Positions 51,135 through 61,539 of a stretch of DNA of 64,000 bases are shown here, in pieces. Location: contig NZ_MASN01000060.1 in the NCBI RefSeq assembly GCF_001861355.1, positions 186,001 to 250,000 of the forward strand. Direction: 5' to 3'. The stretch's first letter is position 1, and every line of letters starts with the position of its first letter. The stretch comes from Natrialba sp. SSL1 (GTDB lineage: Archaea; Halobacteriota; Halobacteria; Halobacteriales; Natrialbaceae). A program made the position numbers and the translations under genes. The notes beneath the pieces are model-generated. The model was not told where the DNA came from, ran no database searches, and worked only from the letters and a program-made list of their open reading frames with translations.

Positions 51135-52250
51135 CTATTTTAATATAGCCTGACGGATACGTTCTACTATTGTCTCCTCATCAGTCATTTCGACTATTTC
51201 TTTCCCGCCGTCCCTCATCTTTTCTCTCGTGTCCCCACCATCGTCTTCCCTTTCTTCGAGCATTTCGTCCACTTCTTCACCACCTTCTTCGAATATTTCA
51301 CCAGTTTCCTCACCGCCTTCTCGGAGCGTCCCGCCTACTTCATCGCCACCTTCTTCGACCATCTCAGCTGTCTCCTCACCACCTTCTTCGACCATCTCAC
51401 CTGCCTCTTCACCACTCTCTTCGACCATCTCACCTGCCTCTTCACCACTCTCTTCGACCATCTCACCTGCCTCTTCACCACTCTCTTCGACCATCTCACC
51501 TGCCTCTTCACCACTCTCTTCGACCATCTCACCTGCCTCTTCACCACTCTCTTCGACCATCTCACCTGCCTCTTCACCACTCTCTTCGACCATCTCACCT
51601 GCCTCTTCACCACTCTCTTCGACCATCTCACCTGCCTCTTCACCACTCTCTTCGACCATCTCACCTGCCTCTTCACCACTCTCTTCGACCATCTCACCTG
51701 CCTCTTCACCACTCTCTTCGACCATCTCACCTGCCTCTTCACCACTCTCTTCGACCATCTCACCCGCCTCTTCGAGCATCTCACCCGCCTCTTCACCACT
51801 TTCTTCGACCATCTCACCGATCTGTTTACTTCCCTCTTCGATCTGATCGCTGAGCCCCTCGCTGGACTCTCTAATTCGATTGGCGACGTTCTCCGTCGTC
51901 TCTTCCGTCTTTTCTGCTACTTTTTGACCACCCTTCTGGACTTGATCAGCCGCGCCGTGGGTCATCCCCCACGTACGACTTTTGACGGTGTCAGTGACTC
52001 CATGACCCTGCTTTGAGGGGCCGTCGCCCTCAGAACTGACCTTTTCGCTTACTGAACCAAACCAATCTCGGAGTACGTAACCAAGGCCGATGAGGGTGAC
52101 TACATCAATTAGACGGGGACGAGATTTCCCCTTCTCAGTAGTCATTCTCTCCTCATCGCTGGTCGGCATTTCCTCCTCGATCCTCCTTCCCCCTTCGTGT
52201 CTGGTCGTCCCCCCGTGTGGAGGGGTTATGTCTGTCTTATCTGACATCAT
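51135..52250 (-). CDS. Membrane-anchored acidic protein with 11-residue tandem repeats
   Basis: About 371 residues (MMSDKTD start at 52250 or MSDKTD at 52247; TATA-like AGTATACTG about 27 bp upstream). A polar N-terminal part is followed by one hydrophobic segment (DVVTLIGLGYVLRDWF, about 48-63), then a helical region and a long run of GEMVEESGEEA units, about eleven nearly perfect plus degenerate flanking ones. Each unit is 11 residues, i.e. three helical turns, so the region should form a long, highly acidic amphipathic rod as in apolipoprotein-like or LEA-like proteins. The C-terminus ends in IVERIRQAILK. No catalytic domain; a structural, membrane-associated or protective role is inferred. 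Confidence 0.75.
   Translation of the reverse strand: MMSDKTDITPPHGGTTRHEGGRRIEEEMPTSDEERMTTEKGKSRPRLIDVVTLIGLGYVLRDWFGSVSEKVSSEGDGPSKQGHGVTDTVKSRTWGMTHGAADQVQKGGQKVAEKTEETTENVANRIRESSEGLSDQIEEGSKQIGEMVEESGEEAGEMLEEAGEMVEESGEEAGEMVEESGEEAGEMVEESGEEAGEMVEESGEEAGEMVEESGEEAGEMVEESGEEAGEMVEESGEEAGEMVEESGEEAGEMVEESGEEAGEMVEESGEEAGEMVEESGEEAGEMVEEGGEETAEMVEEGGDEVGGTLREGGEETGEIFEEGGEEVDEMLEEREDDGGDTREKMRDGGKEIVEMTDEETIVERIRQAILK
51385..51747. repeat. 33-bp tandem repeat inside the acidic rod gene
   Basis: Eleven head-to-tail units of 33 bp (plus strand TCTTCGACCATCTCACCTGC and the following 13 bases) with almost no sequence divergence, followed by more diverged units to about 51815. Near-identity at the DNA level indicates recent expansion or homogenisation. 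There are no spacers, so this is not a CRISPR array. Confidence 0.9.
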
Positions 52251-52507
52251 TAACCTCATTGGCCCCTACAGACAGTATACTTCGGCCAGCAGCAGCAAGT
52301 CGAAAAATGGCGGCCGAATTGTTATTAGCCAAACAGTATGTGGCGGATAACAGATGATACGGAGCGCATACGAGAGATAAACGTGTGTGTTCACTTGGTA
52401 GAAGACTGTCCGATCTGAACAGGGGATCGACGTACCGCTGGTTGGCCAATTAGTGAGCAGTACACGCTATGCACTGAGCATTCACTCTTCCGCATTGATT
52501 GCCTCTC

Positions 52508-53078: not shown

Positions 53079-53516
53079 ATGAGCAATACACCAACTGACA
53101 CCGAATCGACCAGCGGTACCGAAGCTACTCGTGATACCCTCAATACGGACACGATGCAGTGGGTGAGCGCAATCGTTGCCTTGGCAGGATTAGGGCTCAT
53201 AGCCTACCCGTTCATGTTCGAGTCCACAGAGGCGGCGATCTGGAATGACACCATGACCGGGACGGCAGTGTTCCTGCTCGCCGGATACAACTTCTACCGA
53301 TTGACGAAGGATCGACTGGCGAACGTCGCCGTCGCGTCGCTGGCTACACTGCTCGGCCTGTGGGCGCTCGTCTCCCCGGCAGTCATCGAGATGGGCAGCA
53401 ACGAACTCGCGATGACTACCGCCGGTGGCGGCCTGCTCATCGCTGTCCTCTCGGCGTACAGCGCCTACGCGAACAACAGTGCCGATACCTCCGAGACGGC
53501 CCCCGCTCGCGCGTAA
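53079..53516 (+). CDS. SPW-repeat type membrane protein
   Basis: A 145-residue protein. After a Thr/Ser/Glu-rich N-terminus, four hydrophobic helices follow. QWVSAIVALAGLGLIAYPFM and AIWNDTMTGTAVFLLAGYNF contain the W-x-N-x-x-x-G pattern of SPW repeats, repeated loosely in ATLLGLWALVSPAV. Function unknown. An A/T-rich element (GGTAAAAAGG) lies about 25 bp before the ATG. It sits within the segment bracketed by the inverted repeats. Confidence 0.8.
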   Translation: MSNTPTDTESTSGTEATRDTLNTDTMQWVSAIVALAGLGLIAYPFMFESTEAAIWNDTMTGTAVFLLAGYNFYRLTKDRLANVAVASLATLLGLWALVSPAVIEMGSNELAMTTAGGGLLIAVLSAYSAYANNSADTSETAPARA

Positions 53517-53769: not shown

Positions 53770-54981
53770 TCACTCCAGCGCGTACCGTCCGTGCTCGTCT
53801 CGCTCGAACGACTGGCCGGTATCGACCCACTGGTCGGCCGGCTGACTCCCCGCCGCTTCCCCACCGAGGTACCCGTCCGCGACGACCGTCCCCCGCACCT
53901 CGAGCGTTCCGTTCCCTGCACCCTCGACGACGGCACCGTCCGACCCGACGAGTCGCACTCGACAGTCCAGAACCGGACGCCCGATACTCGCCGTCTCGGC
54001 AGCCTCGTCTCTCCCGTCTCCGTCGTCAGTCCCCGCAAAACCACCGCTCGCAACGGCGCTTCCCGCGAGTATCGTCGGACACTCGAGTACCCCGTACACG
54101 CGCGAGACTGGAATCCCGCGATCTCGATACGGATCGAGCAATGCCGGGTCGACTGTCGCGTCTGGCAACACACACCGGACGGACTCGAGTGCGGCCGTGA
54201 ACGCGCCGTCCGCGTCGCCTGCCAAGTCACGAAAAACGCTCGTCCGGCCCGAAAGATGTGTCGCGTTCTCCGCAGCCATCGCGGTCAGCGCATCGCCCGG
54301 ATCGAACGCCCGGTCGAGTAACAGCCGGCCGCCGGCGTACAGCACCGGGAGCGCCAGCCGAACGAGTCCGTCGGGTGCCGATAGCGGAGTCGGAATCGGC
54401 GCGACGGTGTCCTGCGTGAACCCCCACGTCAGGACCGCCGCGATGCAGTTGGACTCGAGCGTCCGCGCAGAAAACGTAACGATCGGCTGTCCGTTGTCGC
54501 CGTGGAGGGCGAGCAGCGCCCGCGATGCATCCGGATCGCTGCCCCAGCGGTCGGCGGGCTCGACATCCGTGAGGTCGGGCAGCGTCACCGAGCGGTCGAA
54601 CGGTATCGAACGGACGAGGTCGCGCTGGGCCGGTTCAGCGACGACGAGGTCAGGATCGAGCGCGTCGAACGGTCGCTCGACAGTCACCGGCGTGAGCAGG
54701 TGTGAAATCGGGGCGAGCGTCGCACCGAGGCGGCGACACGCGAACAGCAGCGCGAGCGAGGTCACGCGGTTTCGCGAAACGAGACAGACGGTGTCGCCCG
54801 CATCGATGCCGAGTCCCGCGAGACGCGCGCCGAGCCAGTCTGCGAGCGTCGAGAGCCCCTCATACGTAATCTGATCCTCGTGGATCGTCTCGGCGGGTGC
54901 GTACAGCCGCTCCTCCGAAATATCGACGATAGCGGTGCGATTCGGAAAGCGCGCCGCCCGCCGTGCGAGCGAGAGAGTCAC
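53770..54981 (-). CDS. Adenylate-forming-enzyme-like protein, truncated and degenerate
   Basis: 403 residues, aligning with the large N-terminal domain of acyl-CoA synthetases/MenE (DTVCLVSRNRVTSLALLFAC, then GATLAPISHLLTP). The P-loop that should read TSGTTGxPKG reads LHGDNGQPIV; the YGxTE motif is VYGVLECP; the TGD motif is WVDTGQSFERD, and the protein ends just after it, before the hinge. The C-terminal lid domain with the catalytic lysine is therefore absent. An ordinary ligase activity is unlikely. It follows a hydrolase-like gene (66-bp gap) that has also lost its nucleophile, so the two probably act together in a non-canonical way. Start at 54981 gives the normal N-terminal LARRAARFPNRTAIVD. 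Confidence 0.75.
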   Translation of the reverse strand: MTLSLARRAARFPNRTAIVDISEERLYAPAETIHEDQITYEGLSTLADWLGARLAGLGIDAGDTVCLVSRNRVTSLALLFACRRLGATLAPISHLLTPVTVERPFDALDPDLVVAEPAQRDLVRSIPFDRSVTLPDLTDVEPADRWGSDPDASRALLALHGDNGQPIVTFSARTLESNCIAAVLTWGFTQDTVAPIPTPLSAPDGLVRLALPVLYAGGRLLLDRAFDPGDALTAMAAENATHLSGRTSVFRDLAGDADGAFTAALESVRCVLPDATVDPALLDPYRDRGIPVSRVYGVLECPTILAGSAVASGGFAGTDDGDGRDEAAETASIGRPVLDCRVRLVGSDGAVVEGAGNGTLEVRGTVVADGYLGGEAAGSQPADQWVDTGQSFERDEHGRYALE

Positions 54982-55047
54982 GAGAGGGATGACGACGCTC
55001 GCAGCCGTAATACGAGCGGAGTCATTCGCAAGCCGCCAGCTCTGTGG

Positions 55048-55848
55048 CTACGAGTCCGCCGACTGCGACTCGGACTCCAAAAACCCGAGCAACCGATCGT
55101 TCACATCCCGCGAGCGCTCGATAAAGCCGAGATGGCCGACGGACTCGAGTGCCTCGAACTCGCCGCGGGGCAGCCCACGCGCGAGGTCGCGGCCGGCGTC
55201 GGGATCGACGAGCGAGTCGTCGGTTCCGTGGAACACCCGCGTCGGCTGGGTTACCTCGACGAGCCAGTCCGTCGCGTCGAAGTCGTCGAGCGCTGCGACC
55301 TGTGCTTCCCAGTCCGCACGGTCGGCATCGCCATCGGCTCGCCAGTCAACCATTCCCTCGACGACCTCCGGTTGGGACGCGAGAAAGTCAGCAGAGAGCA
55401 CCGACTCGAGTGACTCCCGAATCGCGTCCCGGTCGGCCGGCGGGGCGAACAGCGACTCGAGGGAGAACGCATCGCCGGTGGCTGCCGTGCCGAACAGCGA
55501 GAGCGTTTCGACGCGACTCGTGGAGCGAGCGGCCGCAAGCGCGATCGCGCCACCGAGGCCGCAGCCGACGAGGTGGGCGCTGCGAACGTCACACGCTGCG
55601 AGGACCGCTTCGAGGTCGGCGACGAAGTCAGCGAGGTCGTACGGTCCCGGCGGCCCATCAGAGCGGCCGGTGCCGCGGAGGTCCCAGACGATGGTTTCGA
55701 ACGGGCCAGTGAGGGCCGCGTGTTGCCAGCCCCAGAGCCAGCCGCCGAGACCGGCATCGGAGATGAAGACGACGGGAGCGGTGTCTGCCGCGGCGTCGCC
55801 GTCGCGGGAGTAGTGCAGTGAGACGGAACCGTTCGACGCGGTAGGCAT
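55048..55848 (-). CDS. Alpha/beta-hydrolase fold protein lacking the nucleophile
   Basis: 266 residues starting MPTASNGSVSLHYSRDG. The fold is clear: oxyanion-region DAGLGGWLWGWQ, VWDLRGTGRSDGPPGPYDL, the acid in VFHGTDDSLVDP and the His in VGHLGFIER. The nucleophile elbow, normally LVGHSLGGA, reads LVGCGLGGA, so the catalytic Ser position is Gly. Hydrolysis by the standard mechanism is not expected. First gene of a two-gene unit with the ligase-like gene. Compare haloperoxidase/MenH-like families. Confidence 0.8.
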   Translation of the reverse strand: MPTASNGSVSLHYSRDGDAAADTAPVVFISDAGLGGWLWGWQHAALTGPFETIVWDLRGTGRSDGPPGPYDLADFVADLEAVLAACDVRSAHLVGCGLGGAIALAAARSTSRVETLSLFGTAATGDAFSLESLFAPPADRDAIRESLESVLSADFLASQPEVVEGMVDWRADGDADRADWEAQVAALDDFDATDWLVEVTQPTRVFHGTDDSLVDPDAGRDLARGLPRGEFEALESVGHLGFIERSRDVNDRLLGFLESESQSADS

Positions 55849-58690: not shown

Positions 58691-58912
58691 TATACACGTG
58701 TTGGCCATGCAGGGCGTAAAACAGTTCCGCAACACTCACTCGGCGAGAATCCGCCCGATAGCCGTCCGCTCGTCTCAGAGACCGGGTGTTCAGTTATTCA
58801 TTATGTCGGATAGATATTAGTGAGATTGGTGTGAATTAGTGAATCGGAGCCGGGTTCTGGACGCTGTATCGACGGCTCTCTGAGAGCTGGCTAATGTCTT
58901 GATTGTTACAAG

Positions 58913-58930
58913 TCTGCTGCCGGCAGCAGA
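58913..58930. promoter_or_regulatory. 18-bp perfect palindrome upstream of kinase-like gene
   Basis: TCTGCTGCCGGCAGCAGA is a perfect palindrome, immediately followed by a TATA-like ATCTTTATCG (58931-58940). A smaller inverted repeat GCTCTC-T-GAGAGC is at 58875-58887. Placed directly at the promoter, the palindrome could be an operator or part of the transcript's leader hairpin. No gene is seen in 58691-58989. Confidence 0.5.
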
Positions 58931-58989
58931 ATCTTTATCGTGGTGATACGGACAGTACGAATAGACGACGACTCAGGGGCAGGGCTACG

Positions 58990-61539
58990 ATGGGAACCGG
59001 GACACCACAACATCGGCCGCAGACAATCCTCTACGTCGCCGCGTCCGAGGACGCGGCCCGCGACGGAGCGGCGGCGCTCCAGCGCGTGCCGTCGGGTCCC
59101 GACCGCGCCGTCCGGCCAATGACCACCGTCGAGCGGGTCGAAAGCTGGGCTGCGAACGTCGACTGCGTCGTCTTCGCGGAGACGCCGACGACACCCGACG
59201 GCGCGCATCTCCTCGAAGTTGCCGACGCCTGCGGAGAGACGCCCCTCGTCCTGTTCTCCGAGAGCGGCTACGGTGCGACGGCCGCGCGCTCGACGGACGG
59301 CATCGACGGCTACGTCCGGCGCGATACCGACGACGCCGTCTCCCACCTCGCGGACGAACTCACGTGGTTGTGTTACGGGAACGACGGTAGGTCGACGGAG
59401 ACGAGCGCCGACTCAGTCGAGCAGCGCGACGGCGACGACAGCGAGGGTGACGCTGGTACCGATACTGACACAGAGACTGACGACGGCACCGATACTGACA
59501 CTGACGCCGCCATCGTCGCCACCGGTGAAACGAACTCGCAGACGGACACGGACACAGACGCAGACACAAACCCGGAACCACTCACGACAGCAACGACAGC
59601 GACCACCCACGACAGCACAAACACACTGCTCGCCGGCATCGCCAACCTGCTCTCCTGTCGCGATCGCGACCAGCTACTCGAGTCCCTCGTCTCACTCACG
59701 GCAAACACGGTCGACAACGCCGAGTGTTGGATCTCGACGGTCAACTTCGGCGAACTCGTGGCCCAAACGACGGCTGCGGGGGTCGATGCAAACGCAATCG
59801 ATGCGATGCCGACCGACGGCCCGGTCGGGACGGCCTTTCGGGCGGGCGACACGTACGTTGTTTCCGACATCGCGGCCAATGGGGACATCGAGCCACCGCT
59901 GCCAGACGTCCGCTCGCTGTGTAGCGTGCCGATCGACGACCTTGGGGTGCTGGTAGTCGCGAGTGAGACGCCGGAGCGGTTCGAAGTGGGGAACAGCGAT
60001 GCAGGCGAGGGAGACGGACGTACGGACACGGATACGAACACGAACACAGAGACTGACACCGGCGCCGACACCGACACCGACACCGACGAACCCGCCACCA
60101 ACGCAGCCCCAGCTCCAACCCCAACCGCTGTCGACCAACTCGAGTTCCTCTGTGAAATCGCAACCGCAGTTCTCGACCGAAACCGGGCCGAAGCACGTCT
60201 GGCAGCCGAGCGAGACCAACTCGAGACGGCCCGCGACGAAATTGCAAGCGAGCGGGATCGGCTCGCAGAGGAGCAGACAGTCATCGGCGAGGCCGCCGAG
60301 CAACTCGCAGCTGAACGCGACCGGTTCCGGGCGGCGTTCGCCGCCGCGCCGCTGCCGGCGTTGCGGTACGAACTCGAGGCCGGGTCCGAACCCGATGGGG
60401 ACGCCGAGGCGGTCATCACCGACATCAACGCCGCCTTCGAAGCCACGTTCGGCGACGACCGGGAAACCCTCCGCAGCCGCTCCGTCCAGGAGTACACCAT
60501 CCCCTCCGGCCTGAGCGAGCGTGCAACCGCACTCACCGACGCACTACACGCCGGCGAACAGCGGGTACTCGAGTGCCGTCGGGAAACGGTCACAGGTGTG
60601 CGAGAGTTCGAGGTGACGGTGGTTCCGCTGGATAGCAGCAGCGGAACCGAGCAAACTGCCGAGGAAAACACGTCTGCGAGCGCTCAGACCGGACTCCTCT
60701 ACTACGTCGACCGCACCGAACAGAGCGAGACGGAACGAGAACTCACGGCGACCAGGCGCCGACTCGATGCCATCGCGACCATGCTCGAAGACGAGGTCCA
60801 GACGCCGCTCAACGTCGCCCGGGGCTACCTCGAACTCGTCGAGAAGACCGGCGACGCCGAACACTTCGAGGTGATCGACGACGCCCACCTGCAGCTAACG
60901 GACCACGTCGAGTCGTTGTACGATCTCGCTGCGAGCGACGACGTGCTCGCCGAAACCGAGCCCGTCGCGATTCACGACGTGGCTCGGCGCGCCTGGATCA
61001 CCGTCGACACCGGTACGGCCGAACTCGTCACCGAATCGACGCTCGTCCTCGAGGCCGACCGGACGCGACTGCGTGAGCTGTTCGAACTGGTGGTGCGGCT
61101 CGTACTGGCAGATAGTCGGATAGGCGACCGCTCGGACACCGAGTCAACGCCGTCCGCAACGGTCACCGTCGGCGCGACGGACGACGGGTTCTACGTTGCT
61201 CGTGATGGGCCTTCGGCGACGAGTGCCGGCGACGGCTCAGTGAGGGAAGGACAGGGACAGGGAGAGGAGGCCGACTCGAGTGTCGCCGACGAGACGGCGG
61301 CTGCGGCGAACGCGGATGCACAGGCAGCATCGGCATCGGCATCGGAATCGGCATCGGCATCTGCGGAAACGCAACTCGCTGCTCCAACCGAGAACGCAGC
61401 GGAAGTCACAGGCGATCTAGCGGGGGCCCGCGAGCGCGTCGAACAGATCGCCGACGCCCACGGCTGGGACGTCGGTATTGCGGCGGACGACGAGCGTTCG
61501 GCGTTTGCGTTCCGCGGCGTCGACTCGGTTGAGCTCTAA
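58990..61539 (+). CDS. Histidine-kinase-like signalling protein without phosphoacceptor His
   Basis: 849 residues. An N-terminal receiver-like domain (about 12-125, from TILYVAASEDAARDG) lacks a clear phosphoacceptor Asp. An Asp/Thr repeat linker (TDTDTETDDGTDTDTDA) leads to a GAF domain (about 210-335), a second Asp/Thr linker, a coiled coil, and a PAS-like domain (about 450-580). The dimerisation box reads LEDEVQTPLNVARGYLELV near 600, where active kinases have SHDLRxPL, so His is replaced by Asp. The ATPase region (LRELFELVVRLVLADS) lacks the N-box Asn, and the glycine boxes are broken by an Ala/Ser-rich insert (ASASASESASASAE). It is probably a pseudokinase acting by binding. Confidence 0.8.
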   Translation: MGTGTPQHRPQTILYVAASEDAARDGAAALQRVPSGPDRAVRPMTTVERVESWAANVDCVVFAETPTTPDGAHLLEVADACGETPLVLFSESGYGATAARSTDGIDGYVRRDTDDAVSHLADELTWLCYGNDGRSTETSADSVEQRDGDDSEGDAGTDTDTETDDGTDTDTDAAIVATGETNSQTDTDTDADTNPEPLTTATTATTHDSTNTLLAGIANLLSCRDRDQLLESLVSLTANTVDNAECWISTVNFGELVAQTTAAGVDANAIDAMPTDGPVGTAFRAGDTYVVSDIAANGDIEPPLPDVRSLCSVPIDDLGVLVVASETPERFEVGNSDAGEGDGRTDTDTNTNTETDTGADTDTDTDEPATNAAPAPTPTAVDQLEFLCEIATAVLDRNRAEARLAAERDQLETARDEIASERDRLAEEQTVIGEAAEQLAAERDRFRAAFAAAPLPALRYELEAGSEPDGDAEAVITDINAAFEATFGDDRETLRSRSVQEYTIPSGLSERATALTDALHAGEQRVLECRRETVTGVREFEVTVVPLDSSSGTEQTAEENTSASAQTGLLYYVDRTEQSETERELTATRRRLDAIATMLEDEVQTPLNVARGYLELVEKTGDAEHFEVIDDAHLQLTDHVESLYDLAASDDVLAETEPVAIHDVARRAWITVDTGTAELVTESTLVLEADRTRLRELFELVVRLVLADSRIGDRSDTESTPSATVTVGATDDGFYVARDGPSATSAGDGSVREGQGQGEEADSSVADETAAAANADAQAASASASESASASAETQLAAPTENAAEVTGDLAGARERVEQIADAHGWDVGIAADDERSAFAFRGVDSVEL

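Follow-up and report, generated by a model that had tools for sequence, protein, structure and literature searches.

A nucleophile-free α/β-hydrolase-fold protein of Halobacteria and its lidless ligase-like neighbor in Natrialba

Can the two proteins encoded just downstream of the alanyl-tRNA synthetase gene alaS (PF01411) in Natrialba sp. SSL1 do what their families imply? By family they are a hydrolase and an acyl-CoA ligase; by sequence, neither should do that job. The pair lies in the window, by which we mean the whole 64,000-nucleotide stretch of contig NZ_MASN01000060.1 that was analyzed, with the hydrolase gene first and the ligase-like gene following on the same strand after 66 bases (Table 1). 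Pfam places the first product in Abhydrolase_1/6 (Abhydrolase_1, E 3.1e-19) and the second in AMP-binding PF00501 only (E 7.7e-31). The original prediction described both frames as clean and highly biased in their codons. Both are indeed open, and a coding bias is present, with a GC content at codon positions 1/2/3 of 0.73/0.52/0.81 for the hydrolase gene and 0.74/0.53/0.76 for the ligase-like gene; however, it is weaker than in the neighboring alaS (0.70/0.40/0.86), so that the wording was a little strong. A promoter and terminator scan of the locus was uninformative, the promoter model being a bacterial one.

Table 1. Features of the gene pair and its neighbor in the window
Feature	Positions	Strand	Remarks
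HYD-G, α/β-hydrolase-fold protein with Gly at the nucleophile position	55048-55848	-	266 aa, ATG start
Asp at the oxyanion-loop position, codon 31	55756-55758	-	Gly in Ser-bearing relatives, Asp/Glu in most HYD-G
Gly for the nucleophilic Ser (LVGCGLGGA), codon 97	55558-55560	-	alignment to solved relatives and orthologues
Asp at the triad-acid position, codon 211	55216-55218	-	kept; alignment
His at the catalytic-His position, codon 239	55132-55134	-	kept; alignment
Lidless AMP-binding (acyl-CoA-ligase-like) protein	53770-54981	-	403 aa, GTG start
GDNGQP remnant at the place of the P-loop	54484-54501	-	TGGTTGxPK in intact relatives
Gln for Asp of TGD, codon 390	53812-53814	-	variable among orthologues
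Small SPW-repeat protein gene (PF03779)	53079-53516	+	faces the ligase gene

Three other features of the surroundings can be recorded here. The SPW-repeat gene occupies the place where many relatives have an amidotransferase gene. An ORF at 51135-52259 (-) contains about 13-15 near-identical units of 33 bases, with 98% matching over 51352-51773, and its protein matches an apolipoprotein-repeat model below the cut-off. Directed away from alaS is an ORF at 58903-61539 (+) whose GAF/PAS/HisKA-like product has long Thr-Asp runs (HisKA below cut-off); a related gene is found beyond alaS in many loci.

Catalytic α/β-hydrolases require a nucleophile at the elbow. HYD-G is without one, while the triad acid and His are present: in the alignment with solved relatives, Asp211 and His239 fall at the triad positions, and the elbow Ser corresponds to Gly97, the residue in LVGCGLGGA that had been noticed from the sequence in the first place. 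What is new here is this form of the protein, with the Asp211-His239 dyad kept and usually an Asp or Glu at oxyanion-loop position 31. The AF2 model of the hydrolase has a mean pLDDT of 96.9. The adjacent Cys96 was considered as a substitute nucleophile and rejected, as no more than 65 of 163 Gly rows have Cys there.

How widespread is this form? Whole-protein searches found a relative of the hydrolase in all 125 genomes of family f1, which we take to be Natrialbaceae. Of 391 genomes taken from the larger group of class Halobacteria, 361 had one, counting every relative with E 1e-15 or better; a few of these genomes hold a Ser paralogue only. Gly97 was present in 109 of 110 distinct HYD-type sequences, the window included, that were gathered without patterns by similarity to the hydrolase or the ligase-like protein of the window; the lone Ser row, L164, is a remote relative with 30% identity. 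With later loci added the count rose to 163 of 164 scorable HYD-type rows; 80 named loci were found by peptide patterns, one of them with GLG, and are biased towards Gly for that reason. Rows labelled HYDi or HYD2 (see below), of which 9 are also Gly, were kept out of the HYD-type counts. On both counts the substitution is conserved among orthologues, as the original prediction supposed. Asp211 is kept in 161 of 162 Gly rows and His239 in 158, the other four having Arg or Asn; His239 is also replaced by Arg in three further Gly rows labelled HYDi, two of which are hydrolases that adjoin a ligase in family f6. Of 165 HYD-type rows, 151 have Asp or Glu at position 31, where all 28 Ser rows have Gly; the position is non-acidic in 11 Gly rows (Pro in seven). 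The 27 Ser rows of the triad comparison were picked as Ser, so that their Ser97 is there by construction. To judge from these sequences, HYD-G is an old and widespread hydrolase variant of Halobacteria, and much of the class would thus carry a conserved protein under a misleading name.

The proteins also appear to be maintained. By the Nei-Gojobori method, the hydrolase gene of the window gives a pairwise dN/dS of 0.11-0.13 with its three closest relatives and the ligase gene one of 0.13-0.19 with two, and the maximum over all computed pairs is 0.34 and 0.41, respectively. These values, together with the same residue states in orthologues, bear out the view that the genes are selected rather than decaying. 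Since many related species retain them in the same altered form, the two genes seem to encode remodeled, functional proteins and not to be defective copies.

Ser is found in two groups of paralogues, HYDi and HYD2. In the pattern-free set HYDi has Ser, in GASMGGM or GASLGGM, and each of its nine Ser rows adjoins a full-length ligase; these ligases (LIGi) carry the P-loop, the TGD motif and the Lys. HYDi and LIGi share the two-gene order and the families of the window pair but, unlike it, have the Ser and all three ligase motifs. Intact pairs, which the original prediction had named as evidence against itself if they proved to be orthologues, do occur, but they make up a paralogous group of their own. 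Some HYDi loci have a truB-like gene, an HTH_10 regulator and branched-chain-type ABC transporter genes nearby. In four loci (L074, L077, L081 and L083) the intact hydrolase-ligase pair lies between the truB-like gene and the regulator, and where ABC transporter genes follow the pair, as in some of these, the arrangement could possibly represent an operon for uptake of an acid and its activation with CoA.

HYD2 adjoins a DNA primase large-subunit gene in both loci scanned (n=2) and is grouped with HYDi behind a 100/100 branch in the hydrolase tree. Of nine HYD2 rows, six have the nucleophilic Ser and three have Gly in its place. One of the Gly rows comes from the window's own genome (G000:C60:383396-384277; L099 8273-9331), with a GSGLGGM elbow, Asp at oxyanion position 31 and a DNA primase large-subunit gene beside it; Asp31 is found in two of the three Gly rows. 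The nucleophile state changed on at least two branches (two changes in the tree), which suggests that HYD2 underwent a second Ser-to-Gly change, independent of that in HYD-G. Because the tree is unrooted, it does not by itself distinguish gain from loss; Ser is taken as the ancestral state from the wider superfamily. A pairwise test of coupling between an acid at position 31 and Gly97 was not significant, and could not be, with only two independent pairs available. The recurrent, joint replacement at the nucleophile and in the oxyanion loop gives direct experimental access to the way in which a hydrolase fold takes on another use.

In the ligase-like protein, HGDNGQP and TGQ stand where intact relatives have TGGTTGxPK and TGD, and its chain stops where the lid would start, with no match to Pfam PF13193. 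Its best curated profiles are FadD- and MenE-like, far below cut-off, and its AF2 model has a mean pLDDT of 86.1. Absence of the ATP loop, the first of three losses originally proposed, holds for the whole group: the P-loop pattern [ST]G[GS][ST]TGxPK is present in 0 of 85 distinct degenerate ligases and in 24 of 26 others. Loss of the TGD Asp holds for the window protein, which has Gln, but is not a family trait, since the column reads D in 15, E in 15, Q in 5, R in 2, N in 1 and T in 1 of 39 aligned orthologues. The lid and its catalytic Lys are missing from the window protein and from all 73 distinct lidless-type rows for which the sequence was fetched (368-457 aa), but not from every relative, as those of family f6 keep the lid. 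A frameshift can be ruled out as the cause, because the aligned lidless orthologues stop at about the same place.

The f6 ligases show function being lost in stages, the ATP loop and catalytic Lys gone and the lid still present. All ten f6 genomes that were searched have a degenerate ligase next to a hydrolase, and that hydrolase has Gly in all nine genomes that cover the site. Eight of the ten ligases have a complete lid, no P-loop and Glu at the catalytic-Lys position, the Glu being found in six of six rows scorable by pattern. Of the others, L173 is cut by a contig end, and L177 (1486-2886) has most of the lid deleted, with the tail GELDRAALRRQ left; it could be an intermediate of lid loss. 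In family f9, a lidless ligase occurs in two of four genomes, but not next to the hydrolase. Among the 60 genomes searched outside family f1, the 46 that also lie outside f6 and f9 had no degenerate ligase, only intact-type ligases or none above threshold. In the ligase tree a single clade (27 rows, 100/100) holds the degenerate ligases, with three intact ligases as its sister group. Since f6 lacks both P-loop and Lys yet keeps the lid, the losses of P-loop and catalytic Lys probably preceded that of the lid, which may have gone once or more often, the branching among f1, f6 and f9 being unresolved. On this sequence evidence the ligase decayed separately from the hydrolase and stepwise. The single "paired loss" proposed at the outset is not supported: the Gly hydrolase occurs across the class, and degenerate ligases were found only in f1, f6 and f9, at different stages of loss.

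Where both genes are present in family f1, they are close neighbors. Ligase orthologues were listed in 88 of the 125 family f1 genomes, each of which also has the hydrolase, and in 87 of these 88 the ligase gene lies downstream of the hydrolase gene, on the same strand and within 5 kb, as had been expected of a conserved pair. The gap is at most 350 bases in 60 of the 87 (median 124) and reaches 4.9 kb; in the one exception, G122, the two genes are 324 kb apart. This count covers 88 ligase and 113 hydrolase places, the hydrolases of 12 other family genomes being omitted. No ligase orthologue accompanies 25 of the 113 listed hydrolases, and these cases, together with the 46 genomes devoid of a degenerate ligase, indicate that HYD-G does not need one.

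Other genes also recur around HYD-G. In a set of 136 loci, which repeats genomes (121 distinct hydrolase ends) and has flanks of unequal length, 111 loci have the start of a class-I glutamine-amidotransferase-like (GATase) gene less than 6 kb downstream of HYD-G, 68 have a degenerate ligase less than 5 kb downstream, and 90 include an alaS-like gene. An acyl-CoA dehydrogenase gene often comes next, and the order of hydrolase, GATase and dehydrogenase is shared by loci of several families. In phylogenetic profiles, GATase and acyl-CoA dehydrogenase both occur also in genomes without HYD-G; they are therefore neighbors rather than obligate partners, and co-occurrence names no partner for HYD-G. 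In seven Natrialba-group genomes the GATase gene is elsewhere and the hydrolase-ligase pair is still together; in the window's genome it is about 146 kb off on the same contig.

What could such proteins do? With Gly for the nucleophile and Asp for the oxyanion-loop Gly, HYD-G should not form an acyl-enzyme, and the ligase-like protein, having lost the ATP loop and lid, should not make an acyl-adenylate or acyl-CoA. The explanation we tentatively favor, at rather less than even odds, is that both have been repurposed, HYD-G as a Ser-free acid-base or ligand-binding protein and the pseudo-ligase as its partner. HYD-G would work without a nucleophile, and the His239-Asp211 pair, usually with the carboxylate at position 31, would bind or deprotonate a small acyl or aryl compound. 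By analogy, this mode would resemble that of cofactor-free dioxygenases of the same fold, which use a His-Asp dyad and can dispense with Ser. The downstream pseudo-ligase retains the large N-terminal acyl-CoA-ligase domain, would be non-adenylating and, in f1 and f6, may have been recruited near acyl-CoA genes as a putative ligand-binding or regulatory partner of HYD-G. In some families a separately decaying ligase is the neighbor and probable partner of HYD-G. Dyad chemistry cannot hold everywhere, since some Gly rows have Arg or Asn for His239. A bolder version, which we consider doubtful, is that the HYD-G family abandoned covalent catalysis, Gly for Ser and the oxyanion-loop carboxylate together turning the hydrolase site into a Ser-free acid-base site for a non-hydrolytic reaction. 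This state would have been reached twice, in HYD-G and independently in HYD2 of the window's own genome, and in Natrialbaceae and their relatives the pseudo-ligase would have become a dedicated subunit that presents or senses the acyl ligand.

Nearly equal in standing to nucleophile-free chemistry, and likewise short of even odds, is the possibility that both proteins are pure pseudoenzymes: HYD-G would act without chemistry as a sensor, chaperone or scaffold, like the NDRG proteins, and the lidless ligase would be its regulatory partner. The nucleophile and, mostly, the oxyanion Gly are gone, as are the P-loop and lid of the ligase, and non-enzymatic relatives of the fold are documented, for example NDRG3 (in the excerpt of PMC7022630 consulted). 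However, Asp and His persist in about 98-99% of Gly rows, which fits nucleophile-free chemistry better, NDRG3 having lost its whole triad according to the same excerpt, and an acid arises repeatedly at position 31; the few rows that also lack His239 fit a pseudoenzyme.

Distinctly unlikely, in our estimate, is that the two proteins have unrelated functions and are neighbors only through a stable stretch of chromosome around alaS. That region is generally syntenic, as many loci have alaS, a GAF/HisKA gene and an RFC-like gene in the vicinity of HYD-G, and HYD-G does occur without the ligase. Against mere synteny, the Natrialba pair has stayed together although the GATase gene left, the genes are kept within 5 kb in nearly all family genomes with both despite gaps of several kilobases, and the pair is adjacent in f6 too.

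A role for HYD-G as the missing haloarchaeal MenH (EC 4.2.99.20) is disfavored, and we regard it as very improbable. MenH has an α/β-hydrolase fold, and its elimination needs a base only, so that a Ser-free dyad could suffice; HYD-G is also widespread in class Halobacteria. According to the excerpt of PMC8305020 consulted, the haloarchaeal menaquinone pathway still has a gap at EC 4.2.99.20. However, MenB scored above cut-off in 23 of 24 genomes picked for lacking a HYD-G call, which indicates that HYD-G is not generally required for menaquinone. These 24 were 20 of the 30 class-wide misses plus four more: G127 and G132 hold the Ser paralogue only, G180 has no relative other than the remote Ser row L164, and G365 has a weak match at 5e-16 that was taken as lacking a call. 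In addition, HYD-G is matched by PcaD at E 5.7e-32 but by the MenH model TIGR03695 only at E 1.5e-5, with 24.6 bits (cut-off 208.55). The ligase-like protein likewise stays below the cut-off of MenE TIGR01923 (41.3 bits, cut-off 330.15), as does another ligase of the window's genome, with 308.6 bits. Proximity to menaquinone genes, which the original prediction had thought worth checking, was not seen: this genome carries MenB and its best MenE-like ligase on another contig, and a search for a link through MenE- and MenB-like genes in 12 genomes found none. Finally, decayed copies, a frameshift or an assembly error in this strain, which the missing catalytic motifs might suggest, can be excluded on the sequence comparison, as orthologues in many species and genera share the same states, dN/dS is well below 1 and the frames are open.

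Among the papers listed in searches of openly licensed PMC literature, none dealt with the HYD-G family or the pair by title or abstract opening. Several known systems can be set beside them. The closest folds to HYD-G are PcaD and esterases (2xua, 6eb3 and 5egn; Foldseek TM 0.85-0.87 with 2xua, probability 1.00), and PcaD, the 3-oxoadipate enol-lactonase, is also its best curated profile (NCBIfam pcaD, E 5.7e-32). Nevertheless, the score of 111.1 bits with TIGR02427 is under half of the cut-off of 255.85, and unlike these esterases HYD-G has Gly for Ser and Asp or Glu in the oxyanion loop. In the cofactor-free dioxygenases HOD and AqdC, the His-Asp dyad is the base and the nucleophile is dispensable, and some such enzymes have a natural Ser-to-Ala change at that position, as stated in the excerpt of PMC10548524 consulted. 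HYD-G keeps the dyad positions but differs in having Gly rather than Ala and an acid at position 31 and is not known to have oxygenase activity, and HOD and AqdC are not among its best 50 Foldseek matches. The NDRG family shares with HYD-G a hydrolase fold without a usable nucleophile; for NDRG3 the authors conclude, in the part of PMC7022630 consulted, that hydrolase activity was lost with the triad, whereas HYD-G keeps Asp and His. The closest fold to the ligase-like protein is feruloyl-CoA synthetase 8wev (Foldseek TMq 0.83). It has the AMP-binding N-terminal domain in common with this and other ANL ligases, such as MenE 5buq and MatB 4fut, but in contrast to the ANL acyl-CoA ligases the window protein has parted with the P-loop, the lid and the catalytic Lys.
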